Assembly: GCA_029057785.1 (NCBI GenBank)
Contig: JAIDZC010000005.1
Coordinates: 1 to 37,722 of the forward strand
Length of the DNA: 37,722 nucleotides
Source: Anaeroplasmataceae bacterium
Lineage (GTDB): Bacteria; Bacillota_I; Bacilli_A; Acholeplasmatales; Anaeroplasmataceae
Direction of reading: 5' to 3'
The notes beneath the pieces are model-generated. The model saw only the letters and a program-made list of their open reading frames with translations. It was not told the origin of the DNA and ran no database searches. Position 1 is the first letter of the stretch. Every line of letters begins with the position of its first letter. Position numbers and translations under genes: made by a program. Positions 1,520 through 27,160 of this stretch are shown piece after piece.

Positions 1520-2626
1520 ATGGAAAAGTATGAGATGAATAAATTCACAACTGAATATGAACAAAAGCTTTTAGAATTAAAACAAGCCCTGGGAATCGAT
1601 AATAAACGTCCCGTTTTAAAATCTTTAGAAGAAGAGATTGCTTCTCCTGATTTTTGGAATAATCAAGAACATGCACAAGCTATTATTAATCGTATGAATT
1701 CTATGAAAGATATAATTACTAGCTTTGATTCACTTCATTCTAAGTTTAAGGATATTTTAGAGCTTATGGATATGGCACTTGAGGATCAAGAGGCAATGGA
1801 AATGCTAGAGCTATTGATAACCGAATTTAAGGATGCCACAAGCCATCTAGAAGAACAGGCATTATTATCGGGTAAATATGATGATTCTGACTGCATCCTT
1901 GAATTACATCCAGGTGCGGGTGGTACAGAATCTATGGATTGGGCAGATATGCTCTATAGAATGTATTCTAGGTTTTGTGCAAAAAAAGGGTTTAAGCTCA
2001 CTGTTTTAGATTATTTGCCTGGAGATGAGGCAGGAATCAAGTCAATAACATTATCTATAAGTGGCCCTTTTGCCTATGGTCTTTTTAAGGCGGAACGTGG
2101 AGTACATCGTTTGGTTCGTATTTCTCCTTTTGATTCAAATGCCAGACGACACACCTCCTTTGTATCCTGTGATGTTTCTCCTCAAATTCCTGAGACAGAA
2201 GAGGTCGTTGTTAAAGAAGAAGATATAAAAATTGATGTATATCATTCCTCAGGTGCAGGTGGGCAATCCGTAAACACAACAGATTCTGCAGTACGTATTA
2301 CCCATAAGCCCACGGGCATTGTCGTGACCTGTCAAAATGAACGAAGCCAAATTAAAAACCGTGAGGTTGCAATGCGGGTGTTAAAGTCAAAGCTTCTAGA
2401 ACTAGAGCTTAAGAAGCAAGAAGAGGAAATGAAAAACTTAAAGGGTAACCAAATGGAAATCAATTTTGGAAGTCAGATTAGAAGTTATGTTTTTTGTCCA
2501 TATACCTTAGTTAAGGATCATAGAACAAACTATGAGATGGGAAACATTACTGCAGTAATGGATGGAGATATTGAAGGCTTTATGCTTTCATATTTGAGAA
2601 TGATAGCGGGGAAAGAAAATGAATAA
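1520..2626 (+). CDS. prfB: Peptide chain release factor 2
   Basis: RF2 reads UGA and UAA stop codons and triggers peptide release in the ribosome. The 368-residue product is close to the usual 365. It shows the stop-codon recognition tripeptide SPF (residues 202-204, in RISPFDSNARRHTSF) and the GGQ catalytic motif (residues 247-249, in SGAGGQSVNTTDSA). ATG 1520 is chosen because GGGAGG lies 8 nt upstream; an in-frame TTG at 1496 has no such site. In many bacteria the gene carries an in-frame UGA near codon 25 that requires a +1 programmed frameshift. Here the N-terminus (LLELKQALGIDNKRP) reads through in one frame, so that autoregulation is absent. The stop overlaps the start of the next gene by 8 nt. 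Confidence 0.97.
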   Translation: MEKYEMNKFTTEYEQKLLELKQALGIDNKRPVLKSLEEEIASPDFWNNQEHAQAIINRMNSMKDIITSFDSLHSKFKDILELMDMALEDQEAMEMLELLITEFKDATSHLEEQALLSGKYDDSDCILELHPGAGGTESMDWADMLYRMYSRFCAKKGFKLTVLDYLPGDEAGIKSITLSISGPFAYGLFKAERGVHRLVRISPFDSNARRHTSFVSCDVSPQIPETEEVVVKEEDIKIDVYHSSGAGGQSVNTTDSAVRITHKPTGIVVTCQNERSQIKNREVAMRVLKSKLLELELKKQEEEMKNLKGNQMEINFGSQIRSYVFCPYTLVKDHRTNYEMGNITAVMDGDIEGFMLSYLRMIAGKENE

Positions 2627-3515
2627 AGAGTATTTGAAAAAAAGATTCATACAATATCTATTTATAGCATTAGGTGTTATCCTACTAGATTTTGGATTTT
2701 ATTTCTTCACAAATCCAGCAAAGCTAGTATTTGGTGGTACAATGGGATTATCTGTTATTCTAGAGCCCTATTATTCTAAGCTTGGTACATGGTTTACATC
2801 CTCCATATTTTTATGGATAGCCAATGGTATTGCCCTCATTGTTGGTGGGATTATGCTCGGAAAGGATTTCTTTCTTAAAACAATTTTTTCTACGGCATTT
2901 TCTCCACTCGTTGTTTTTATTTTTGAAAGAACCTGTGATCCAAATTTCTTTATGAAGGAGGTCTCTATTGGTGGATATTATCCTATTGCCATAATTTGTA
3001 GTATAGTGACCTCTGGTTGTGGTTTAGGACTTGCTTTAAAAAATAATGGCAGCACTGGTGGTATGGATGTCATTCAAAAAATCCTAAGCAAATACCTACA
3101 TGTTCCATATTCCAAAACAATGTATTTTACAGATTGGGTAATTGTAATTGCTTCTGGTTTTGCATTTACACCTACATTTTCTTATCACATTGAGACAGTT
3201 ATTTATGGTATTATAGGAGTTTATGGTATTTCCCTTATAATAGATGTAATTGTCTTGCGAGCAAAGGTGAGAAGAACAGCCTATATCATCACAGAAAAGC
3301 CAGAGGAGATTAGAGATTTTATTTATGCAAAAACAGATCGTGGCGTAACCTTTGTAGATGCTTATGGTGGTTATACAGGAAATAAAAAGACTATGGTTGT
3401 TTGTACAATGGAGAAAAATGAAGCCTATAAAATTACAGAGAGCTTAAATGAAATAGATCCTCATGCCTTTTGCTATGTAAGTACAACCAGAGAAATTGTT
3501 GGAGATTATTTATGA
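2619..3515 (+). CDS. YitT family integral membrane protein (DUF161/DUF2179)
   Basis: A 298-residue polytopic membrane protein. Five or six hydrophobic segments span residues about 13-215, including the family signature region around GLALKNNGSTGGMDVIQKIL. A cytoplasmic DUF2179 domain follows (about 222-298; RRTAYIITEKPEEIRDFIY onward). YitT proteins are widespread in Bacillota and several copies per genome are usual. The transported substrate, if any, is not established. Translation is probably coupled to prfB because ATGAATAA overlaps the prfB stop. The 3' end overlaps recX by 4 nt. The family call is firm, the function is unknown. Confidence 0.9.
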   Translation: MNKEYLKKRFIQYLFIALGVILLDFGFYFFTNPAKLVFGGTMGLSVILEPYYSKLGTWFTSSIFLWIANGIALIVGGIMLGKDFFLKTIFSTAFSPLVVFIFERTCDPNFFMKEVSIGGYYPIAIICSIVTSGCGLGLALKNNGSTGGMDVIQKILSKYLHVPYSKTMYFTDWVIVIASGFAFTPTFSYHIETVIYGIIGVYGISLIIDVIVLRAKVRRTAYIITEKPEEIRDFIYAKTDRGVTFVDAYGGYTGNKKTMVVCTMEKNEAYKITESLNEIDPHAFCYVSTTREIVGDYL

Positions 3516-4096
3516 TTGTAAATCGTTTAACAAAGTGTAAAGAATCTACCTATGAGGTTGAAATAGAACAAAAGGTCTATATTTTGGATGAGGAGACCGT
3601 CTTGAAATATCGTTTATTTAAAGGATATGAAATTTCGCCAACAGAATTAGAGGAATGTATACAAGCTAATGAATTGGAAACGATAAAGAAGAAAGCATAT
3701 TCCTATTATTTAAAATATCAAAAAAATACTTATGAAGTAATTAAGTATCTTACAGATAGAGAAATTCCTTATTTGCTTGCGGTAGAAGCCGTACATACGC
3801 TAGAGGACAAAGGCTTAATCAATGAGCTTTACCTTGCGATTGGTGTTGCAGGATCTTTAGCTAGAAATTCTAATGGAATATATATGATTCGTCATAAGCT
3901 CAAGAATAGGCATTTTAAAAATGATGTGATTGAAGAAGCCATAAATCAATTAACAGAAGAAGATGTCGAAGAGGGGAAGAATAAATTATACGCCAAAGCA
4001 ATCAAAAAGTATGGCAAATTAAATTCTTTTGAACAGAAACAAAAACTAAGAGAAGCCTTTTATCGTCATGGCTATACGGAAAGTATCTCTTCTTGA
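3512..4096 (+). CDS. recX: Regulatory protein RecX
   Basis: RecX modulates RecA filaments. The product is 194 residues and consists of tandem three-helix repeats, as expected. Recognisable stretches are the first repeat around YLKYQKNTYEVIKYLTDREI, the 'LEDKGLINELYLA' helix, and the C-terminal repeat with KAIKKYGKLNSFEQKQKLRE and YRHGYT. The start is the ATG that overlaps the yitT stop (ATGA). An upstream in-frame ATG at 3470 lies well inside yitT and is less likely. recA is not in the window. The gene is the last of the prfB-yitT-recX unit, and the next promoter begins at its stop codon. Confidence 0.85.
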   Translation: MIVNRLTKCKESTYEVEIEQKVYILDEETVLKYRLFKGYEISPTELEECIQANELETIKKKAYSYYLKYQKNTYEVIKYLTDREIPYLLAVEAVHTLEDKGLINELYLAIGVAGSLARNSNGIYMIRHKLKNRHFKNDVIEEAINQLTEEDVEEGKNKLYAKAIKKYGKLNSFEQKQKLREAFYRHGYTESISS

Positions 4097-4121
4097 TATT
4101 TCATATAATTTTTAGTATAAT
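4093..4121 (+). promoter_or_regulatory. Sigma-A-type promoter of glgB
   Basis: TTGATA (4093-4098) and TATAAT (4116-4121) with a 17-nt spacer. The -35 box overlaps the recX stop codon. The start codon lies about 52 nt beyond the -10. Confidence 0.75.
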
Positions 4122-4173
4122 AAAAATTAAGGAAATCTTTTTTATTAAAATTGAACAATTTGAGGTGATTTGA

Positions 4174-6093
4174 ATGGTAAGAGATAAGATAGATTCCAAT
4201 TTTTTGTATTTCTTTGATCAAGGAAAATGTCAGGAAGCTTATCAGATTTTTGGTGCTCATTTAAACAAAAATGAAGATGGTAAAATCATAGGCTGTGAGT
4301 TTTGTCTATATGCTCCAAATGCCACCTATGTAGCTGTAGTTGGAGAATGGAATTTTTTTAATCGTGGACAAGATAAGATGCAAAAAATTGATGACAGTGG
4401 AATTTGGTATTTATATTTAGAGGGAGACTTCTTTGAATGGAAAAGATATAAATACTATATTGAAACGAAAACAGGAGAAGCTAAATATAAGGCAGACCCT
4501 TACGCTTTTTATTCTGAACTTAGACCTTCTACAGATTCTAAAATTTATGACATTGATGGATATTCTTGGAATGATAAGGACTGGATGTATACGCATCCTA
4601 AAACCTATGAGGAGCCTGTTTTGATTTATGAACTCCATTTAGGGTCTTGGAAAAGAAAAGGCGAAGGAGAAAATGACTTTTATTCTGCAAATGAAATTGC
4701 TCCTATGTTGATTCCTTATTTAAAGCAATTTGGCTATACCCATGTTGAGGTTATGCCTATCTATGAACATCCTTTAGATGCTTCATGGGGATATCAAGGC
4801 GTATCCTATTATTCTGTTTCTGCAAGATATGGTGTACCTAAGGATTTTATGTGGTTTGTAGATCAGCTCCATCAAAATGGAATTGGCGTCATTATGGACT
4901 GGGTACCAGGACATATTTGTAAGGATGCCCATGGCTTATATCAATTTGATGGGTCCTCTTTATACGATTATGCAGATCCATCCATTAGAGAAAATGTCGA
5001 ATGGGGTACTGCCAATTTGGATTTAGGAAAAGGAATTACACGTTCCTTCCTATATTCTAATGCACTGTTTTATATGAATTATTTCCATGTAGATGGATTT
5101 AGAGTAGATGCAGTAAGTAACCTTTTATATCATATGGGCAACCCTGAGCGTGGTGTCAATGAGGGTGCATGTAGCTTTTTAAGGGAGCTATCCAATATTA
5201 TTTTTGGTAAAGATGATAGAGTTCTTTTAATGGCAGAGGATTCCTCTAGTTTTCCTAATGTAACTAAGCCTACGGATATCGGTGGTATAGGTTTTAATTA
5301 TAAATGGGATATGGGCTGGATGAATGATACACTTAAGTATTTTAAGCTTGATCCAATCTACCGTAAATATCATCATCATCAGCTTACCTTTAGTATGGTT
5401 TATTATTATAACGAGCAATTCGTATTGCCTTTGTCTCATGATGAAGTTGTGCATATGAAGGGTTCTATTTTAAATAAAATGCCAGGAGATTATTGGCAGC
5501 AATTTGCAAACTATAGGCTATTAATGGGCTATATGATGACACATCCTGGAAAGAAGCTTTTGTTTATGGGAAATGAGCTTGCACCATATAGTGAATGGGC
5601 ATTTAACAAGAGCTTAGATTGGAATTTGTTAGAATACCCTAGCCATGATTCTGCACATCACTATATGATGGATTTGACTAATCTATATAAGAATTCAAAG
5701 TGCTTATATGAACAAGATTTTCATCCAGATGGTTTTAAATATATAGATGCAGATAATGCAGACCAATCTTTGTATATCTTTGCTCGTTTTGCAAAGAATA
5801 GAGATGACCATTATTTAATAGTGATGAATTGTACACCAAATACATATTATAATTATAAAATTGGTGTGCCTGGGAAATTTGATTATCAAGAGATTTTAAA
5901 TAGTGATAAAGATATTTATGGTGGTTCAAATTGCATAAATCCTAATCTTTGTGTAAGCCAAGAAGAGGATTGGAATCATGAAAAGAATATTATATTTTTA
6001 AATATTCCACCATTAGGTATCACAATCTTAAAACCAAAAAAGAAGGTTAAGCCTAGAAGTAAACAACCAAAAATTTCACCTGTAGTGAAATAA
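4174..6093 (+). CDS. glgB: 1,4-alpha-glucan branching enzyme
   Basis: GlgB introduces alpha-1,6 branches into glycogen. The 639-residue protein has an N-terminal CBM48 beta-sandwich (about 35-105, with APNATYVAVVGEWN) and a GH13 barrel. The catalytic motifs are visible: DWVPGH (region I), GFRVDAV with the nucleophile Asp (region II), MAEDSS with the acid/base Glu (region III) and LSHDEVVH (region IV). A C-terminal all-beta domain follows, then a Lys/Pro-rich tail of about 20 residues. GAGGTG precedes the ATG. The neighbour is glgP, but no glgC or glgA is present in the window, so synthase genes must be elsewhere if the pathway is complete. The gene has its own promoter at 4093-4121. Confidence 0.95.
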   Translation: MVRDKIDSNFLYFFDQGKCQEAYQIFGAHLNKNEDGKIIGCEFCLYAPNATYVAVVGEWNFFNRGQDKMQKIDDSGIWYLYLEGDFFEWKRYKYYIETKTGEAKYKADPYAFYSELRPSTDSKIYDIDGYSWNDKDWMYTHPKTYEEPVLIYELHLGSWKRKGEGENDFYSANEIAPMLIPYLKQFGYTHVEVMPIYEHPLDASWGYQGVSYYSVSARYGVPKDFMWFVDQLHQNGIGVIMDWVPGHICKDAHGLYQFDGSSLYDYADPSIRENVEWGTANLDLGKGITRSFLYSNALFYMNYFHVDGFRVDAVSNLLYHMGNPERGVNEGACSFLRELSNIIFGKDDRVLLMAEDSSSFPNVTKPTDIGGIGFNYKWDMGWMNDTLKYFKLDPIYRKYHHHQLTFSMVYYYNEQFVLPLSHDEVVHMKGSILNKMPGDYWQQFANYRLLMGYMMTHPGKKLLFMGNELAPYSEWAFNKSLDWNLLEYPSHDSAHHYMMDLTNLYKNSKCLYEQDFHPDGFKYIDADNADQSLYIFARFAKNRDDHYLIVMNCTPNTYYNYKIGVPGKFDYQEILNSDKDIYGGSNCINPNLCVSQEEDWNHEKNIIFLNIPPLGITILKPKKKVKPRSKQPKISPVVK

Positions 6094-12098: not shown

Positions 12099-14399
12099 AT
12101 GAAAAAGAAAAAGACAATTGAAACGATTGAATTAGATGAAAAATTTAGCATTCCTCAAATTAGCTATACGTTAGATGGGCTATTAAAGGGAAGAACAAAA
12201 TTTCAACGTAGCCAAATTGTATCTCCAATTCATGGAACACATGTCGTAGATCGTATGCACTATGTAGATAATAGTGGCAAAGTGGATGTGGATTATGGGT
12301 ATGATTATATTCGTGACCAGAAGCATATTTCTGATGAAGAGCTAATCGCAAGACATGGCACTAAATATTATGAGTTTAGTTATGTAAATAAACAATTAAC
12401 AGATGAAGAAAAACGTGGTACAGATTATACCAAAAAAGAAGAAAAACCAGTTATAGAGCCTGTAAAAGAGAACAAAACGTTGAGCTCCTTTTTCACTACA
12501 AATGAAGGTTTAAAAGCAGAGGAAGAAAAGGAACCAGTCATTCTTGATCCGGTTTTAGAAGAAGAACCAGAAGAAATCATCAATCCATTAGAAGAGGATG
12601 CCGAATTTAATATTCGTATTTCTATTGATGAGGAAGAGGAAGAGCCTTACGAATATAATAGCTTTGATGCAAATCTGCCAAAGCCTGAGCCAACTCCAAT
12701 TCATAATTATGATTATCGTAGAGAGGATTTAATTCCTCCTACACCAAAACCAGCTCCTCAAAAGCCAAAACCTGTGGTTGAGCCTGAAGAAAAAATTGAA
12801 GAAATTGATTATTCAGATGCAATGGATTTTGTTGAGGAGATTATGGATGAGCCTGTGATTGAAGAGGAGATGGAAGAGATTATAGTCGCTCCTTCTAAAC
12901 CAGCACCAGCAATTGAGCCAAAACCAGAACCCAAGCCTAAAAAGCCAAAGTATGATAATTATAAAATTCCTTATAAAAAGTTATTCCCAGCTGGAGATGC
13001 TTCCTTAGAGGAAATGCCTGCTTGGCTTGAGGAGAAAAAAGAAATTATTAATCAACAGCTTCAAGCCTTTGGAATTGATGGTGAGGTTATCACTTATACA
13101 AAAGGCCCTGCCTTCACTCGCTATGAAATTATGCTTGCTCAAAACGTAAATGTTAAAAAGATTAACAGCATTTATGATAATATTCAAATGGCATTAAAAG
13201 CTAAATCTATGCGTATTCAGGCTCCAATTCCTGGTAAAAATACAGTTGGTATAGAAGTGCCAAATGAGAAAGCGGATATGGTGGCCTTTGGTGATATTTT
13301 AACAGATGATTATATCAATAATAAAAAGAATTTATTGATTGCTATGGGTAAAGATATTGACGGTACACCAGTATTCCAAAATATTATTGATATGCCACAT
13401 GCTCTTATTGCAGGTGCTACTAAATCTGGTAAATCAGTATGTATCAATACCTTATTGGTATCTTTGTTGATTAAGAATTCTCCAGAACAATTAAAACTTA
13501 TCTTAGTAGACCCTAAGAAGGTTGAACTATCCTTTTATAACAACTTGCCACATCTAGCTACTCCAGTAATTGATGACCCTGTTATTGCAACTGAGGCTTT
13601 GAAGTGGGCAGTTGCTGAAATGGAAAGAAGATATGAGCTTTTGGCGATTTCTAGAGTTAGAAATATAGAAGATTACGATAGAAAGCGTGAGAGTAAGCCG
13701 GAAATGGAAAATCTACCTTTTATCGTTATTGTTGTAGATGAGTTTAATGATTTGATTATGCAATGCGGTGTTGAAGCAAATGATGCCATTGTACGTCTTG
13801 CTCAAAAGGCAAGAGCAGCAGGTATTCATATTATCCTTGCAACACAGCGTCCTACTGTAAATGTAGTAAGTGGTACTATCAAGGCAAATATTACCTGTCG
13901 TATTGCTTTTAGAGTGGCAACAGATGCTGACTCTAGAATTATTCTAGATGAACAAGGTGCAGAAAGTTTGCTTGGTCGTGGAGATATGTTGATTAAGAAT
14001 AATGGCTTACCTGAACGTGTACAGGGTGCCTATATCTCTGATGATGAAATTGGTAATATTTGCGATTTCATTTGTGAACACTATGAACCAGATTTCTTAT
14101 TTACTCATGAAGAATTACGCAAAAAAGCATCTGGTGGTGCAGGTGCTGGTGGCAATGGAAGAGAATCTGCTCAGGAATCTGAGGATCTATTGTATCAAAT
14201 TGCACTATACTGTATTGAATCAGGAATGTGCTCTATTAACTCCATCCAAAATAGCTTTGGTTTAGGATTCAATAGAGCTTCGCGTATTGTTGCAATATTA
14301 GAAGAAAGAGGTATTGTATCTCCTAAGAATGGAACTAAGGGAAGAGAAATATTAGTTGATTCCTATCGTTTGAAGGAAATGTTTGATGACATAATGTAA
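12099..14399 (+). CDS. DNA translocase FtsK/SpoIIIE family, soluble SftA-like form
   Basis: This ATP-driven motor moves double-stranded DNA during chromosome segregation. The 766-residue product has no N-terminal membrane segments. Residues 1-310 form a polar linker rich in Glu, Pro and Lys. The alpha domain (about 315-400) and RecA-like beta domain follow, with Walker A GATKSGKS (439-446), Walker B VVDEFNDL (Asp547-Glu548) and ATQRPTVNVVSGTIKAN. A C-terminal winged-helix gamma domain (about 698-760; NRASRIVAILEERGIV) reads DNA polarity sequences. The lack of the four-helix anchor resembles B. subtilis SftA rather than SpoIIIE. GAGGT precedes the ATG. The upstream gene encodes a membrane protein. 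Confidence 0.92.
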   Translation: MKKKKTIETIELDEKFSIPQISYTLDGLLKGRTKFQRSQIVSPIHGTHVVDRMHYVDNSGKVDVDYGYDYIRDQKHISDEELIARHGTKYYEFSYVNKQLTDEEKRGTDYTKKEEKPVIEPVKENKTLSSFFTTNEGLKAEEEKEPVILDPVLEEEPEEIINPLEEDAEFNIRISIDEEEEEPYEYNSFDANLPKPEPTPIHNYDYRREDLIPPTPKPAPQKPKPVVEPEEKIEEIDYSDAMDFVEEIMDEPVIEEEMEEIIVAPSKPAPAIEPKPEPKPKKPKYDNYKIPYKKLFPAGDASLEEMPAWLEEKKEIINQQLQAFGIDGEVITYTKGPAFTRYEIMLAQNVNVKKINSIYDNIQMALKAKSMRIQAPIPGKNTVGIEVPNEKADMVAFGDILTDDYINNKKNLLIAMGKDIDGTPVFQNIIDMPHALIAGATKSGKSVCINTLLVSLLIKNSPEQLKLILVDPKKVELSFYNNLPHLATPVIDDPVIATEALKWAVAEMERRYELLAISRVRNIEDYDRKRESKPEMENLPFIVIVVDEFNDLIMQCGVEANDAIVRLAQKARAAGIHIILATQRPTVNVVSGTIKANITCRIAFRVATDADSRIILDEQGAESLLGRGDMLIKNNGLPERVQGAYISDDEIGNICDFICEHYEPDFLFTHEELRKKASGGAGAGGNGRESAQESEDLLYQIALYCIESGMCSINSIQNSFGLGFNRASRIVAILEERGIVSPKNGTKGREILVDSYRLKEMFDDIM

Positions 14400-19874: not shown

Positions 19875-20390
19875 ATGAAAAAAAATATATTTTTACTTTT
19901 TCTAGTAGTATTGTTTACTTTGATTTTCTCTTCTTGTAGTTCACAGGAGTCTGTCTATCCACCAAAAGATCATATAAAAATAGAATTAGAACCAGAATAT
20001 AGTATATATGATGATATTCTAGTGGATATTTCTATAGGGCTTTGGAAAGAAGCACAGGAAAGCTATATTTCTACACCAAATCTTAAATATATAGTAGCAT
20101 ATTCCAAAACCTATCCTGCGGATAATTCTGAGGAGCATACAATTTTATTCACATTAACAGACTTTTCATCTGATATATATTATTTCACTGAAAACGGAAA
20201 TAAGATTATCTATAATTTCAAAGAAACATTTTCCATAAAAAAGGAAGTTTTTACAGATAGTACAGGAGAATTTTATATCTTTATGTATAGTACGACTTCA
20301 GATTTTAATGGGAGAAGCTTTACTCGTATAAGTAAAATAACTTATGAAAAAAACAATGAAACATTAATACTAAATAGATCTAAAAGTTAA
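19875..20390 (+). CDS. Putative lipoprotein
   Basis: A 171-residue secreted lipoprotein of unknown function. It has an n-region MKKN, a hydrophobic core (about 5-18) and a lipobox ending LIFSSC, with Cys20 as the probable lipidation site. The mature part is acidic and predicted mostly beta, with aromatic-rich strands such as DIYYFTENGNKIIYNF. AAAGGA is upstream. It is followed 12 nt later by the secreted metalloprotease, so the two are probably co-transcribed. The sequence is more AT-rich than the core genes on either side, in line with an accessory origin. Confidence 0.65.
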   Translation: MKKNIFLLFLVVLFTLIFSSCSSQESVYPPKDHIKIELEPEYSIYDDILVDISIGLWKEAQESYISTPNLKYIVAYSKTYPADNSEEHTILFTLTDFSSDIYYFTENGNKIIYNFKETFSIKKEVFTDSTGEFYIFMYSTTSDFNGRSFTRISKITYEKNNETLILNRSKS

Positions 20391-20402: not shown

Positions 20403-20693
20403 ATGAAACACAAATTAAATCATAAAGTATTTGGTTTTTTATTATTATTTATATTAATTGTATCTTTTTGCAGCATTTCAACTTCAGCTAATTCAAAGTA
20501 TGATAATAGTCATTTAAGTACATCCAAAATGAGTGATTTAAATGACATTGAATCAGTAGCTTTTAATTCACAGTTAGATGATGCTCTTTATGGCAATGAG
20601 ATTGAAGAAGATACTTATTGTCAAGATTATATTCAATTAGATTTTGAGGAAAGGGCATTTTCATTATCGGAAATAGCATATCTATTTTTTTAA
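20403..20693 (+). CDS. N-terminal part of a secreted metalloprotease, ending at a T7 frameshift
   Basis: A 96-residue ORF with a clear signal peptide: MKHKLNHK, a hydrophobic core FGFLLLFILIVSFCSIS, then a TSANSK cleavage region. After this it is acidic. It ends CTA TTT TTT TAA. Skipping one T of the T7 run (20685-20691) continues in frame as FFNVNSSSQVKN and leads directly into the HEXXH protein downstream, giving one 769-residue protein. This is therefore not an independent gene but the export signal and pro-region of the protease. Either the locus is frameshifted (pseudogene, phase-variable or sequencing error) or the ribosome shifts +1 at TTT-TAA. GAAAGGAAAG precedes the ATG. Confidence 0.7.
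   Translation: MKHKLNHKVFGFLLLFILIVSFCSISTSANSKYDNSHLSTSKMSDLNDIESVAFNSQLDDALYGNEIEEDTYCQDYIQLDFEERAFSLSEIAYLFF
20685..20691 (+). other. T7 homopolymer at the frame junction
   Basis: Seven T residues followed directly by AA, so TTT TTT TAA in the upstream frame. The +1 frame is open only from 20677 (after TAG 20674-20676), so the join must occur at or next to this run. A tRNA-Phe on TTT can re-pair on the overlapping TTT one base downstream with the stop codon in the A site. Confidence 0.7.
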
Positions 20694-20817
20694 TGTCAAT
20701 TCCTCAAGCCAGGTAAAAAATGTTAAATATGAATATGCAGGATTTAATATAATTGAGACAAGCATAGTAAAAGGCTCTGTTAAAATAGGCGTTAAGTTTA
20801 ATGAGAATAATGATGCC

Positions 20818-22713
20818 ATGAGTCTTAAATTGATAGTAAAACTATCTGATGATAATGTCTTAGTTTCTAATGTATATGGATATCAATCTAATGAATTATA
20901 TTTTTTTAGTTATGCATCAGATGAAAATGTAGATTTATTATATTATGATTATGCGTTAAGAACAAATACGATTTCTAATGAAGAATATGAAGAGTTATTA
21001 ATAGAAAAATCTTGTCTTGCAGAAGAAAAAAAATATGTTAGCAATGAAATACAGCAAGATCCTTTTTATGATTCTAATAATCAGGCCAGTGTACTTGCTT
21101 ATGAACCAGTAGCATCATATGTGAGCGGAAACTGGAGCTGGCATGATGGGAATAATTATCACCCGTTAAAAAACACATTGGTAAACATATCTTATCCTCG
21201 CAATGCTCCTGGGGATAGTGCATATGTATCATGTAGTACTTATACAGATGAAAATGGTGATTTTTCTGCAACACTTTGGATTACAGAGTCAGTTGAGGTT
21301 CAAGTTCAGGTACGTTCAGAAGGTAAAACAACTCTAGTTAGAAAAAATTCACTTAGTTCATCTTATTCTTCAACAACTCCTTCTAAAACACTTAACCCAG
21401 GCGGTTCTGTTTCATTTGATTATTATTTGCCTAATACAAGTACAACTTTTAAGGCTTTTCAGGTTGGCCAAGCGCTGATTATGGGTGGAAGATATGTTGA
21501 GGCAATGACTGGAACAACTGCCCCAAAAGCAACTTGCCATTTTCCTAAATCTAATAATCAATATAGTTCCTTTTGGGATGCTATAGATATTACAGAGGAA
21601 GCCCATAATTATTGGGATATTATTCTGCATGAGTATGGACATAAACTTCAAGACCATTTTAAAATTGATGATAGTCCTGGGGGCTCACATATTATCAATG
21701 AAGATTTAATTACTAAGCATGGCAAAGATAAAGGTTTAAGATTAGCATGGGGAGAAGGTTGGCCCACTTTCTTTTCCATATTGGTAACTCAATATTATGG
21801 AGATGAATTAAGAAATATTAGACAAATAAATGACAACACCTATCATTCATATACTTATAATGACGATGGTGAGCTTGAGGAGTGGAATTTTAATCTTGAG
21901 ACTCCAAGCACGCATGTAGAAGGAGAAGGCTGTGAGGCAGCTATCTTTGCTGTACTATATGATTTTTATGATTTTTACTCTTTAAATGAATCATGGGATA
22001 ATGTGTCTTTCTCTCATAGTACCATGTTCAATGCAGTAATTAATTCCAAAGCCACTACATTTTCAGGGTTTTTAAATTATTTTGTTAACAACTATCATAG
22101 TGCTAATGATGGAAAAATAGGTGATATTTTATCACAATACGGAATGTCCCCAACTAACTTAAGAGTAAGCAATGGAACTTTATCATATACTACTCCACCA
22201 ACATTTTTTTGGGAAGCTGGTGGCCCAACATCTTGTAGCTATAATAGTTTTAAATTAGCATTTTATAATTCAAACAAGTCAATTATCTTGACAACAGAAG
22301 AGCAGCTAGATACTACTTTGACATTATCTTTAGAGCAATGGCATCAAATCTGGGACTCTGATACTACATCTGTTTTTGTAATGGTAATAGCATATCAAAC
22401 CTCTAAACCATCTACAGGAGCTTATTACTCTGTTCAATTAGAAATATCAAGACCATCTAATGAAACTCATGTACATAATTATACATATACATATACCGAT
22501 GTACATACACATAAAGCATCTTGTGCTTGTGGGGATTCCTTTCAGCAGGTTCATTATTTCATAACAGAGAGACTAGGTCAAAGATGCAAATATTGCCGAT
22601 ATTATACAGAGGGACCAGTAATTACCCCAGGAATAATGAGTTCAAATTTAATTACTAAAGAAGTTTTATATATTCCAAGAAAAGAAACAATAAATGTTAT
22701 TGAAAGTATTTAA
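20818..22713 (+). CDS. Zinc metalloprotease, catalytic and C-terminal part
   Basis: The open frame actually extends upstream from 20818 to the T7 run at 20691; the ATG at 20818 is internal and has no ribosome binding site. The 631-residue part contains a beta-rich region, a carboxypeptidase-regulatory-like/transthyretin-like domain (around SYVSGNWSWHD to TLWITESVEVQVQV), and a zincin core with HEYGHKLQDHF (bases 21628 onward). A downstream AWGEGWPTFFSIL supplies a candidate third zinc-ligand region. The C-terminus has a small His/Cys module (about 552-605) with CACGD and CKYC. No membrane anchor is seen. Without the upstream ORF it would have no export signal. It is followed by a strong terminator. 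Confidence 0.75.
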   Translation: MSLKLIVKLSDDNVLVSNVYGYQSNELYFFSYASDENVDLLYYDYALRTNTISNEEYEELLIEKSCLAEEKKYVSNEIQQDPFYDSNNQASVLAYEPVASYVSGNWSWHDGNNYHPLKNTLVNISYPRNAPGDSAYVSCSTYTDENGDFSATLWITESVEVQVQVRSEGKTTLVRKNSLSSSYSSTTPSKTLNPGGSVSFDYYLPNTSTTFKAFQVGQALIMGGRYVEAMTGTTAPKATCHFPKSNNQYSSFWDAIDITEEAHNYWDIILHEYGHKLQDHFKIDDSPGGSHIINEDLITKHGKDKGLRLAWGEGWPTFFSILVTQYYGDELRNIRQINDNTYHSYTYNDDGELEEWNFNLETPSTHVEGEGCEAAIFAVLYDFYDFYSLNESWDNVSFSHSTMFNAVINSKATTFSGFLNYFVNNYHSANDGKIGDILSQYGMSPTNLRVSNGTLSYTTPPTFFWEAGGPTSCSYNSFKLAFYNSNKSIILTTEEQLDTTLTLSLEQWHQIWDSDTTSVFVMVIAYQTSKPSTGAYYSVQLEISRPSNETHVHNYTYTYTDVHTHKASCACGDSFQQVHYFITERLGQRCKYCRYYTEGPVITPGIMSSNLITKEVLYIPRKETINVIESI

Positions 22714-23188: not shown

Positions 23189-23270
23189 CTAATAAGCAGT
23201 TGCGATTTTTTCATTTTTGTAGGAAAATATTATCTTTTATGTTAAAATACTATTGAAAGGAAGTGCTCCT

Positions 23271-24374
23271 ATGTTTCTTAAATCTGTTTATTTTCCTGGC
23301 TTTGATTATTTTACGAAGGAAACCTGCATCCATAATTATTATCCAGCTAAAATTTTGGCTAAGCTTGATATAAAAGAAATGGAATTTTCAGATATAACTA
23401 TTTTTTATGGAAATAATGGTTCAGGTAAATCTACGCTTTTAAATCTGCTTGCAGAAAAAATTAAAGCCTCTAGGCAAACACGTTTCTTTAAAGATGAAGA
23501 ATGGGTGGTCGGACCAGGAGGAGGATCTCTACACAAATTATTTGATGAATGTGTCAAAGAAGTTGATGTTACCCTTGAGCTTGGAGAAAATGGAAAAGCA
23601 ATAGAACTTCCTTTTCATCGTAAAGTCATTACTAGTGATGACATTTTTAAGATATTGGATTCCAAAAAGGAGTTTAACCAGAATATAGTTCTAAAGACAG
23701 ATGAGGCAAATAAAGAAGGGAAAAAGCTTTTAAAGGAAGGCTATTACTATAGGGGAATGGAGGATTTTGAAAGACTTAGAGATTACAACACGATGAGAAG
23801 TTCTCCAAAACGCTATATTGCCAGTAAGGTTGGAACCAAGAAGACACAATACTCAAATGGAGAAACTGCAATAAAGTACTATATGGATATGATTGAAAAT
23901 GATGGCATCTATTTGCTAGATGAACCAGAAAACTGCTTATCTCCTCTATATCAGCTTCAATTAAGAGATTTGATTTTATCCTCTTCAAGATATTGTAATT
24001 GTCAGTTTATTATTGCTACACATTCGCCTTTTTTCTTAAGCCTAGATGGTGCTAGGGTCTATAACTTAGATAAGGAACCCGTGGTGAGCGAGAAGTGGTA
24101 TCAATTAGAAAACTCTATTATTTGGTATAATTTTTTTAAAGAGTATCAAAATGTATTTGAAACTAAAGAAGAGGGTCCTCTAACGCTACCAGTATTAACG
24201 AACAAAGAGTTTGATGAACTTATGGATACTTTGAAGAATATGAATTGTACAAGTGGATTTATTGGAATGATTCGTGGGAATGAAGAATATCTATCAAAAG
24301 TATTTTATTTATTAAATAAGTATCCAGATTTAGAGGAAATGGATTTAAGGAGAGAATTAGGACTTATTCGCTAA
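23271..24374 (+). CDS. AAA family ATPase (ABC/RecF-like), predicted
   Basis: A 367-residue soluble P-loop ATPase. Walker A is YGNNGSGKSTLLNLLAEK (near residue 45). A signature-like SNGETAIKYYMDM lies near 200, Walker B is GIYLLDEPENCLSP, and the switch His is in IIATHSPFFLSL. This layout, with a short coiled or helical insert, is that of the AAA_15/AAA_21-type predicted ATPases (COG3910-like) related to RecF and OLD. No nuclease domain is attached and no partner effector lies next to it. ATG 23271 has GGAAG 7 nt upstream. The role is unknown. It lies at the border between the accessory island and the SRP operon. Confidence 0.8.
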   Translation: MFLKSVYFPGFDYFTKETCIHNYYPAKILAKLDIKEMEFSDITIFYGNNGSGKSTLLNLLAEKIKASRQTRFFKDEEWVVGPGGGSLHKLFDECVKEVDVTLELGENGKAIELPFHRKVITSDDIFKILDSKKEFNQNIVLKTDEANKEGKKLLKEGYYYRGMEDFERLRDYNTMRSSPKRYIASKVGTKKTQYSNGETAIKYYMDMIENDGIYLLDEPENCLSPLYQLQLRDLILSSSRYCNCQFIIATHSPFFLSLDGARVYNLDKEPVVSEKWYQLENSIIWYNFFKEYQNVFETKEEGPLTLPVLTNKEFDELMDTLKNMNCTSGFIGMIRGNEEYLSKVFYLLNKYPDLEEMDLRRELGLIR

Positions 24375-24406: not shown

Positions 24407-24436
24407 TTGAAATTGTATATTGAATTATGATATAAT
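24407..24436 (+). promoter_or_regulatory. Promoter of the ftsY-ylxM-ffh operon
   Basis: TTGAAA (24407-24412) and TATAAT (24431-24436) with an 18-nt spacer, 25 nt before the ftsY ATG. Confidence 0.7.
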
Positions 24437-24461
24437 TCATAAAGAATATGGAGTTGATTTT

Positions 24462-25430
24462 ATGGGCTTCTTTGATTTATTTAAGAAAAAGGACAAAGAA
24501 AAAAGTAAAAAGTATAAATTAGGTCTTCATAAGACAAGAGAAGGTGCCTTAGCTGGTCTTCGTGAAATCTTATCTAAAAGTACTAAAATAGATGATGAAT
24601 TATTTGATGAACTAGAAGAAGTATTCATTATGGCAGATATCGGTGTGGATACCGTAGTAGATTTCATTGATGAATTAAAGGAAGAGGTTTATCATAAAAG
24701 AATAGAAGATCCATTATTGTTGCAAGAAATGATTATGGACAAGATGTTTGAAATATATTTGAATGGTGAAATTGTAAATGCCAACCTTAAGCTAAAGAAG
24801 GATGATTTATCTATCGTTTTATTTGTTGGTGTCAATGGCGTTGGAAAAACGACCTCTATAGCTAAGATTGCTTATGCCTACAAGAAACAAGGCAAGAAAG
24901 TTTTACTTGCAGCAGGAGATACCTTCCGGGCGGGTGCAATTGAACAGCTCTCTGTTTGGGCGAAACGCGTAGGTGTTGACATTGTTACTAAGGAAGCAGG
25001 CTCTGATCCATCAAGTGTTATTTTTGAGGCTTGTAAGAAGGCTAAAAATGAACATTATGATTTACTCCTTTGTGATACGGCAGGACGCTTACAGAACAAA
25101 GTGAATTTGATGAATGAGCTTGCAAAGATGAAGCGTGTCATTGAAAACGTGTGTCCTGGTGCTCCAGATGAAACTTTGCTTGTCATAGATGCTACAACAG
25201 GTCAAAATGGTATGTCTCAGGCCAAAGCCTTTAAAGAGGCTACAGATGTAACAGGAGTTATCCTAACAAAGCTGGATGGTACATCTAAGGGTGGTATTGT
25301 ACTGGCAATCCGTCATGAGATGGGAATTCCTATCAAATACATTGGCTTAGGAGAATCTGTTGAAGACTTAGAGGTATTTGATATTGAGCAATATTTATAT
25401 GGTCTATTTGCTGACTTCTTTGAGGAATAG
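24462..25430 (+). CDS. ftsY: Signal recognition particle receptor FtsY
   Basis: FtsY docks the SRP-ribosome complex at the membrane. The 322-residue product has a short Lys-rich N-terminus (MGFFDLFKKKDKEKSKK) in place of a long acidic A domain. An N domain follows, then a G domain with GVNGVGKTTSIAKIA, DTFRAGAIEQL, DTAGRLQNK and LTKLDGTSKGG. ATG 24462 is supported by GGAG 8 nt upstream and by the match of MGFFDLFK to family N-termini. It is the first gene of the conserved SRP operon and is followed by ylxM after 3 nt. Confidence 0.96.
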   Translation: MGFFDLFKKKDKEKSKKYKLGLHKTREGALAGLREILSKSTKIDDELFDELEEVFIMADIGVDTVVDFIDELKEEVYHKRIEDPLLLQEMIMDKMFEIYLNGEIVNANLKLKKDDLSIVLFVGVNGVGKTTSIAKIAYAYKKQGKKVLLAAGDTFRAGAIEQLSVWAKRVGVDIVTKEAGSDPSSVIFEACKKAKNEHYDLLLCDTAGRLQNKVNLMNELAKMKRVIENVCPGAPDETLLVIDATTGQNGMSQAKAFKEATDVTGVILTKLDGTSKGGIVLAIRHEMGIPIKYIGLGESVEDLEVFDIEQYLYGLFADFFEE

Positions 25431-25433
25431 CCT

Positions 25434-25736
25434 ATGTCTATGACGTTTGAGAAAAGAGAAGAAATCATTAGCTTGTATGATACTTATGGTGTCTTGCTTA
25501 CAGATAAACAAAAAAATTATTTTGAAAGCTATTATTTTGATGATTTATCTATTACAGAAATTGCAAGCAATTTTGAAGTCTCAAGAAATGCAGTATTTGA
25601 CCAGTTAAAACGAGTTAATCTCATTTTGATGGAATATGAGGAGAAGCTTAAGATAGTAGAAAAAACTTCAAAAATAGAAAAATTAGAATTATCAAAACCT
25701 TTGAAAGAAGAAATACTAAATATATTAAAGGAGTGA
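25434..25736 (+). CDS. ylxM: YlxM-family SRP operon HTH protein
   Basis: A 100-residue UPF0122/YlxM protein. The region LLTDKQKNYFESYYFDDLSI and the following TEIASNFEVSRNAVFDQLKR form a sigma-region-4-like helix-turn-helix. In streptococci and relatives YlxM modulates SRP activity. GAGGA lies about 7 nt upstream of the first of two close ATG codons. It sits between ftsY and ffh, its constant position in Bacillota. Its TGA overlaps the ffh ribosome binding site. Confidence 0.9.
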   Translation: MSMTFEKREEIISLYDTYGVLLTDKQKNYFESYYFDDLSITEIASNFEVSRNAVFDQLKRVNLILMEYEEKLKIVEKTSKIEKLELSKPLKEEILNILKE

Positions 25737-25741
25737 AGCGT

Positions 25742-27160
25742 ATGGCATTTGATAGCTTAAGTTCACGATTACAAATGGGCCTACGTCGTTTGACGGGCAA
25801 AGGAAAATTAAATGAAAATGATATCGACGATATGCTTAGAGAGGTTCGTCTTTCTTTGTTAGAAGCCGATGTGAATTATAAGGTTGTCAAAAAATTTCTA
25901 GCGAATATTAAAGAACAGGCTTTAGGAGAACATATTTTAAAAGGCTTAAATCCTGGTCAGCAGGTCGTTAAAATAGTTCGTGAGGAATTGAAAAAGACAT
26001 TAGGTGATGAAGCTGTTGAATTAAGCTTTGCCTCTAGTGGGATGACTGTTGTTATGGCTGTGGGTTTGCAGGGTGCTGGTAAAACAACGGCTGTTGGTAA
26101 GATGGCACTTTTTTACCGCAAAAAGATGAAGAAAAAACCAATGCTTATTGCTGCCGATATTTATCGTCCTGCGGCAGTAGATCAGCTTGTTACACTAGGT
26201 AAACAGATTGATGTTCCTGTATTTGAGATGGGAACTAAGGTATCTGCCCAAAAGATTGTAACAGAGGGATTAAAGAAAGCCAAAGAGGAAGGCTATAATC
26301 TTGTCTTTATTGATACAGCAGGTCGTTTAGAAATTAACGAAGAGCTGATGGATGAACTTAAAGATATTGAAAAGATTGCATCTCCACATGAGATTTTACT
26401 TACTGTAGATGCAATGGCAGGTCAAAATGCTGTTAATGTGGCACTGGCTTTCCATGAAAAGCTCAATATCACGGGTTGTATTTTAACAAAACTTGATGGT
26501 GATACTCGTGGTGGTGCTGCCCTTTCCATTAAAGAAATGACAGGAATTCCAATTAAGATTATGTCTACCGGTGAAAAGCTAGATGCTATGGAAATCTTTT
26601 ATCCAGACCGTTTGGCAGATCGTATTTTGGGTATGGGTGATGTCCTTTCCTTAATCGATACAGTTACAGAAAACATAGATGAAGAAGAAATGAAATCTAT
26701 GGCTGAAAAGATGATGAGTAATTCCTTCAATTATAATGATATGCTTAAGCAGTTTAAGATGATAAAGCGTATGGGATCTATCTCTAAGATTCTTGGTTTT
26801 CTTCCTGGCATGCGAAATATCAAGCAGGCAATGGCCAATGTAGATGACAATGCATTAGATAAAATTGAATGTATTATATTCTCTATGACTGAAAAGGAAA
26901 GAAGTCATCCTGAATTGATTGATAGAGATTATAAGCGTAGAGAAAGAATTGCCAAAGGCTCTGGTAGAACGATTCAAGAAGTAAATCAGCTAAGAAGCTC
27001 TTTGGAAAATATGAAAAAGACAATGAAGCAGATGAACAATATGTCTGAAGCAGATGCTATGCGTATGCAGTCTCAAATGAAAAATGGCAATTATTCTGGA
27101 ATGGCTCAGCCTAAGGTTCATAAGGGAAAAGGCAAGGGCAAAGGAAATTTTAGATATTAA
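25742..27160 (+). CDS. ffh: Signal recognition particle protein Ffh
   Basis: Ffh is the SRP54 GTPase that binds signal peptides and 4.5S/6S RNA. The 472-residue product has an N domain, a G domain (GLQGAGKTTAVGKMA; DIYRPAAVDQL; DTAGRLEIN; LTKLDGDTRGG) and a Met-rich M domain. The M domain includes the RNA-binding RRERIAKGSGRTIQEVNQL near residue 400 and the flexible Met-containing loop ILGFLPGM. The C-terminus is Lys/Gly rich (HKGKGKGKGNFRY). ATG 25742 has AAAGGAG upstream; GTG 25733 is less likely. A terminator follows. The SRP RNA gene is not in the window. Confidence 0.97.
   Translation: MAFDSLSSRLQMGLRRLTGKGKLNENDIDDMLREVRLSLLEADVNYKVVKKFLANIKEQALGEHILKGLNPGQQVVKIVREELKKTLGDEAVELSFASSGMTVVMAVGLQGAGKTTAVGKMALFYRKKMKKKPMLIAADIYRPAAVDQLVTLGKQIDVPVFEMGTKVSAQKIVTEGLKKAKEEGYNLVFIDTAGRLEINEELMDELKDIEKIASPHEILLTVDAMAGQNAVNVALAFHEKLNITGCILTKLDGDTRGGAALSIKEMTGIPIKIMSTGEKLDAMEIFYPDRLADRILGMGDVLSLIDTVTENIDEEEMKSMAEKMMSNSFNYNDMLKQFKMIKRMGSISKILGFLPGMRNIKQAMANVDDNALDKIECIIFSMTEKERSHPELIDRDYKRRERIAKGSGRTIQEVNQLRSSLENMKKTMKQMNNMSEADAMRMQSQMKNGNYSGMAQPKVHKGKGKGKGNFRY

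Follow-up and report, generated by a model that had tools for sequence, protein, structure and literature searches.

Homopolymeric tracts whose length sets the reading frame of a surface or secreted product are known from phase-variable genes of Campylobacter and Bordetella, and there is good documentation of phase variation by homopolymers in mucosal bacteria (PMC8355987, PMC1891110). In AT-rich bacteria such as Buchnera, homopolymer frameshift pseudogenes carry a one-base change in an A/T run, with the rest of the gene intact and with homologues that are read in a single frame (PMC5574713). Slippage of transcription at homopolymers mostly inserts one base (PMC5574713), and selection against slippage is evident from nine nucleotides in many genomes (PMC1088944). 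The +1 frameshifting of prfB and antizyme, a further system, has in common with the site described below an in-frame stop directly after a codon able to re-pair in the +1 frame. The gene of interest encodes a putative secreted metalloprotease in the window (the whole 37,722-nucleotide stretch of Anaeroplasmataceae DNA that was analysed) and is probably a recently inactivated gene.

This gene is read in two frames, both on the forward strand. The 5′ part, ORF1 (20403..20693, 96 aa), starts with the ATG at 20403, has AAGGAAAG upstream, and encodes a signal peptide, called by eye as MKHKLNHKVFGFLLLFILIVSFCSISTSANS, and the start of the N-terminal domain. It runs into a T7 homopolymer (20685..20691) followed by AA, with the final T of the run forming the first base of the ORF1 stop codon TAA (20691-20693). 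The second frame opens at 20677, just after a TAG (20674-20676), and ORF2 (20677..22713), representing the remainder of the protease, continues for 678 codons without a stop until the terminal TAA (22711-22713). These coordinates had been given in an earlier note and were confirmed in the sequence, and its count of 769 aa for the protein joined by removing one T is arithmetically right. The ORF2 frame possesses no ATG, GTG or TTG ahead of 20818, and no SD sequence was found at the ATG at 20818, which is preceded by GTTAAGTTTAATGAGAATAATGATGCC; the description of this codon as internal and without a ribosome binding site therefore holds. The interpretation of ORF2 as a separate gene starting at 20818 was rejected, both for the missing SD sequence and because homology extends upstream to the junction. 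Hexamer coding scores at the junction are 0.82 before and 0.63 after the T7, in different frames. Given that both frames are coding right up to and from the junction, and given the uniqueness of the site among the listed hits of the genome scan presented below, the split is far beyond chance.

The nearest orthologue of this protease, in G004, an Anaeroplasmataceae MAG of the same genus, is 43% identical, too divergent for a dN/dS estimate, and is read in a single frame across the region. The whole of ORF1 aligns to residues 1-77 of the G004 protein (z = 8.2 against shuffles) and ORF2 aligns from residue 77 onward, with no gap between the two pieces, which meet at the T7. As the two pieces, placed end to end, match a single protein read in one frame, they represent one gene, broken exactly at the T7. 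The best named relative, from Acholeplasmataceae bacterium AS08sgBPME_432 (L094), is a single-frame protein of 734 aa with 40% identity, to which ORF2 aligns strongly (z = 15.9) and ORF1 weakly (z = 1.7, not significant). At the junction site G004 and L094 have different codons, with no T run and no frame change. The 80 relatives fetched are single-frame with few exceptions, some being cut by contig ends, and a split at the T7 position was found in none of the 80. No near-identical strain for a comparison of tract length was found in the genome-contig or viral-contig collections (one genome per species). Overall, these alignments show a protease gene that once was a single frame and is now split exactly at a homopolymer. 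The earlier suggestion that export of the protease is tied to the tract is borne out by this arrangement, as the split of one protease gene at the homopolymer uncouples export from catalysis.

A gene for a 171-aa lipoprotein with a lipobox-like N-terminus (FSSC) lies upstream on the same strand (19875..20390) and is a putative partner of the protease. In G004 the orthologue is likewise directly preceded by a lipoprotein gene, whose product is 36% identical to that of the window, and in L094 the ORF directly upstream of the protease (189 aa) is lipoprotein-like by its position and N-terminus. With this upstream neighbour in the window and G004, and an ORF of similar size in L094, the lipoprotein and protease pair looks like a conserved cassette.

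By homology, the protease gene was a single frame encoding a signal peptide followed by putative N-terminal, Ig/transthyretin-like and thermolysin-like catalytic domains. ORF2 carries the zinc-binding and catalytic motif HEYGH (21628..21642, forward strand), and in an alignment of 42 sequences the H, E, G and H of this HExGH motif are invariant, as is a downstream Glu. The latter is the Glu of WGEGW (21754..21756, forward strand; column E360 of A1 / E313 of A2), which is located in helix 303-326 of a structure model, after the HExxH helix, and is the likely third zinc ligand, as in gluzincins. All 28 invariant residues of A1 are present. The structure model, made for 20818-22710, has a mean pLDDT of 84.8 and matches thermolysin (5fxn; Z 18.3, 257 residues aligned, rmsd 3.8) as well as other M4 enzymes (Z about 18, about 257 residues, rmsd about 3.8, about 11% identity), and by this predicted fold the catalytic part is thermolysin-like. 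It resembles the M4 gluzincins (thermolysin, vibriolysin, aureolysin) in predicted fold and in the possession of HExxH with a downstream Glu, but differs in its low identity of about 11%, in N- and C-terminal parts unlike theirs, and in having no Pfam M4 match. The peptidase M4 model of Pfam was not among the matches of the 42 family members, and no Pfam peptidase family matches convincingly, so the protein is filed here as thermolysin-like and not as M4. Searches of Pfam, NCBIfam, PADLOC and PDB sequences returned no name for the protease; a PDB match to a lipoxygenase was dismissed, as it covers profile positions 132-231 only, outside the catalytic motif. These proteins constitute a widespread protease family of thermolysin-like predicted fold which is without a match to a Pfam peptidase model.

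The genome (1.76 Mb, 32% GC, a draft in 44 contigs) was scanned over 1.11 Mb for coding-frame switches at homopolymers, comprising 6,578 runs of at least six. The scan recovered 82% of simulated changes (226 of 276 insertions and the same number of deletions) and called none of 276 intact tracts; it replaced an earlier scan by start-codon distance, whose recall on simulated indels was 18-26%. There were 33 raw hits and those listed were read by eye, with hits at runs of six having an SD-bearing start nearby being taken as junctions outside this reading. Apart from the T7 and one A9, the listed hits represent gene junctions where a start codon lies close by, and the T7 is the only coding-frame switch among them whose second frame has no start codon in the vicinity. 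The A9 is the sole other split judged genuine in the 1.11 Mb, and A/T tracts of at least seven that are intact in large ORFs number in the hundreds. With only one other split judged genuine in this span, the assembly does not appear to be error-rich at homopolymers.

The A9 run (G000:C30, 3524-3532) divides a gene (3046-3736) into two frames; this gene is immediately followed by one for a HamB-like (Hachiman) helicase (3733-6033), and neither piece of the split gene matches a HamA model. A PD-T4-1/NO VEIN-like gene also adjoins it. A look-alike of an A7 frameshift near 13847 on the minus strand of G000:C8 (L041) was discarded, its translation running from a recombinase-like ORF into an asparagine synthase-like ORF. 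The asparagine synthase-like ORF (HSGECADEVFGGYPWF) is 5′-truncated, and the fusion suggests integration of a mobile element into an asparagine synthase-like gene.

Tract lengths in coding sequence were also compared to an expectation obtained by synonymous-codon shuffling of 522 ORFs. The ratio of observed to expected T runs is 0.50 for T7 (84 tracts, fewer than expected) and 0.19 for T8, and runs of T9 or longer number 0 against 23 expected. Depletion begins at a length of six for T runs and of eight for A runs, and at equal length is stronger for T. T runs of at least seven are selected against in this genome, and their depletion is as expected if T runs are prone to frame-breaking change.

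We consider it probable, at roughly 0.6, that a real one-base change in the length of the T run inactivated the protease gene in the sampled strain. Since its relatives read this stretch in one frame and without a T run, an ordinary recent knock-out (or an “off” allele) is most likely, and a replication slip in the T run of an accessory gene under weak selection would be the simplest account. With seven Ts, ribosomes starting at 20403 would make a 96-aa fragment and then stop, and the catalytic part would not be made, or would be made at most at trace level and not exported. No further decay, be it a second lesion or lost catalytic residues, was seen in the 678 codons of ORF2; with no second stop there and the catalytic residues intact, the lesion, if real, would be recent. 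As in the pseudogenes of Buchnera, the homologues are intact and single-frame and the lesion is private to one genome, although the genome studied here (1.76 Mb, 32% GC) has not undergone strong reduction and splits in it are rare (two judged genuine in 1.11 Mb). However, the downstream frame keeps its full coding character, which counts against a lesion, and a single lesion without further decay would also be seen with an assembly error, with an allele in its off phase or with rare read-through. An assembly or base-calling error, with a true gene that is intact and ordinary, would account for a lone lesion in an otherwise clean gene of a 44-contig draft, homopolymers being where such errors fall. 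Set against this are the hundreds of intact tracts with just one other split judged genuine, and the accessory nature of the genes in which both splits lie, as true losses are to be expected in such genes; we regard such an error as unlikely and the seventh T as probably real. Reversible phase variation, in which changes of T-tract length at replication toggle export of the protease and the assembly caught the off state, is possible, though unlikely. Such control would suit a protease that a gut bacterium secretes or displays on its surface, the other split judged genuine likewise lies at a homopolymer (A9), in a gene that is accessory and linked to defence, and a homologue in G001 is split at an A7. 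When compared to the phase-variable tracts of Campylobacter (PMC8355987) and Bordetella (PMC1891110), however, the T7 would make a short contingency tract, is not over-represented (the 84 in 522 ORFs are below expectation) and is not conserved in the relatives compared, being absent from G004 and L094, with the G001 run at another position of the gene. The loss is read as probably lasting and not as a reversible switch. It is quite unlikely that protease export is genuinely switched by the T7, be it on and off or by low-level read-through, with the A9 beside the Hachiman-like helicase being a second such switch.

The geometry of the site had also been likened to +1 recoding in prfB and antizyme. 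This stands in so far as perfect re-pairing of the P-site TTT to the TTT of the +1 frame is possible inside the T7; the downstream frame is still open and conserved, and tracts of the length of T7 are under selection in this genome. That recoding, programmed or tolerated, by a +1 ribosomal shift at TTT-TAA or by transcript slippage, yields some full-length protease from the T7 is nevertheless very improbable. UAA-U is a strong stop context. Unlike the sites of prfB and antizyme, the present one combines this stop with an accessory gene and with a lack of conservation (G004 and L094 are without the shift site) and of a stimulator, there being no SD sequence within 20 nt upstream and a downstream RNA fold that is not more stable than shuffles (z = 0.65). 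The prfB of the genome itself (window 1520-2626) is read in a single frame. Productive transcript slippage, which had been raised as well, is unlikely at a T7, as errors of transcription at homopolymers mostly add one base, the wrong direction for joining the frames of ORF1 and ORF2, with no frame restoration seen (PMC5574713), and the tract is shorter than the A/T run of about nine or more nucleotides expected of a productive slippage site, selection against slippage being evident at nine in many genomes (PMC1088944). If the T7 is a plain lesion, it adds another example of an accessory secreted enzyme being lost at the strain level, and warns against equating an in-frame stop that follows TTT with recoding in every case; if the tract varies, it would be an instance of a secreted protease under phase variation by a homopolymer, in an uncultured gut lineage that has been little studied.

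The inactivation favoured here falls in a protease family that is often lost by the genus, and damaged family members are common within it. The G004 copy has lost its C-terminal third after GEGCE, a C-terminal remnant alone (67% identical) is kept at G003:C48, and the G001 homologue switches frame at its A7, GGGAAAAAAATG, elsewhere in the gene than the T7. Copies in a single frame are found at G003:C168, in G010 and G002, and as a paralogue at G000:C14 of the studied genome. Among the 80 relatives fetched, L117 and L132 have an internal TAA, and L097 and L102 each have a lone in-frame TGA in an otherwise open 1,180-residue frame (residue 509 in the frame from 107 and residue 495 in the frame from 1695, respectively). 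The TGA of L102 falls at the conserved Trp of AWGEGW, and the two TGA codons are either nonsense changes or are decoded as Trp. Further damage in relatives, which the earlier note had named as the mark of a plain pseudogene, is accordingly seen in part. In G001 (L020, G001:C88, 123-1986), the homologous protease is preceded by the gene for an ECF-type sigma factor and by an ORF of 446 aa, which may encode a membrane partner of that protease.

Two other genes of the window may be mentioned. The prfB gene is without the usual in-frame TGA recoding site. Downstream of the protease, a PtuA/AriA-like ATPase gene with a TTG start (23253-24374) adjoins two SRP54-family GTPase genes (24420-25430 and 25733-27160) and possibly encodes a lone defence-type ATPase.
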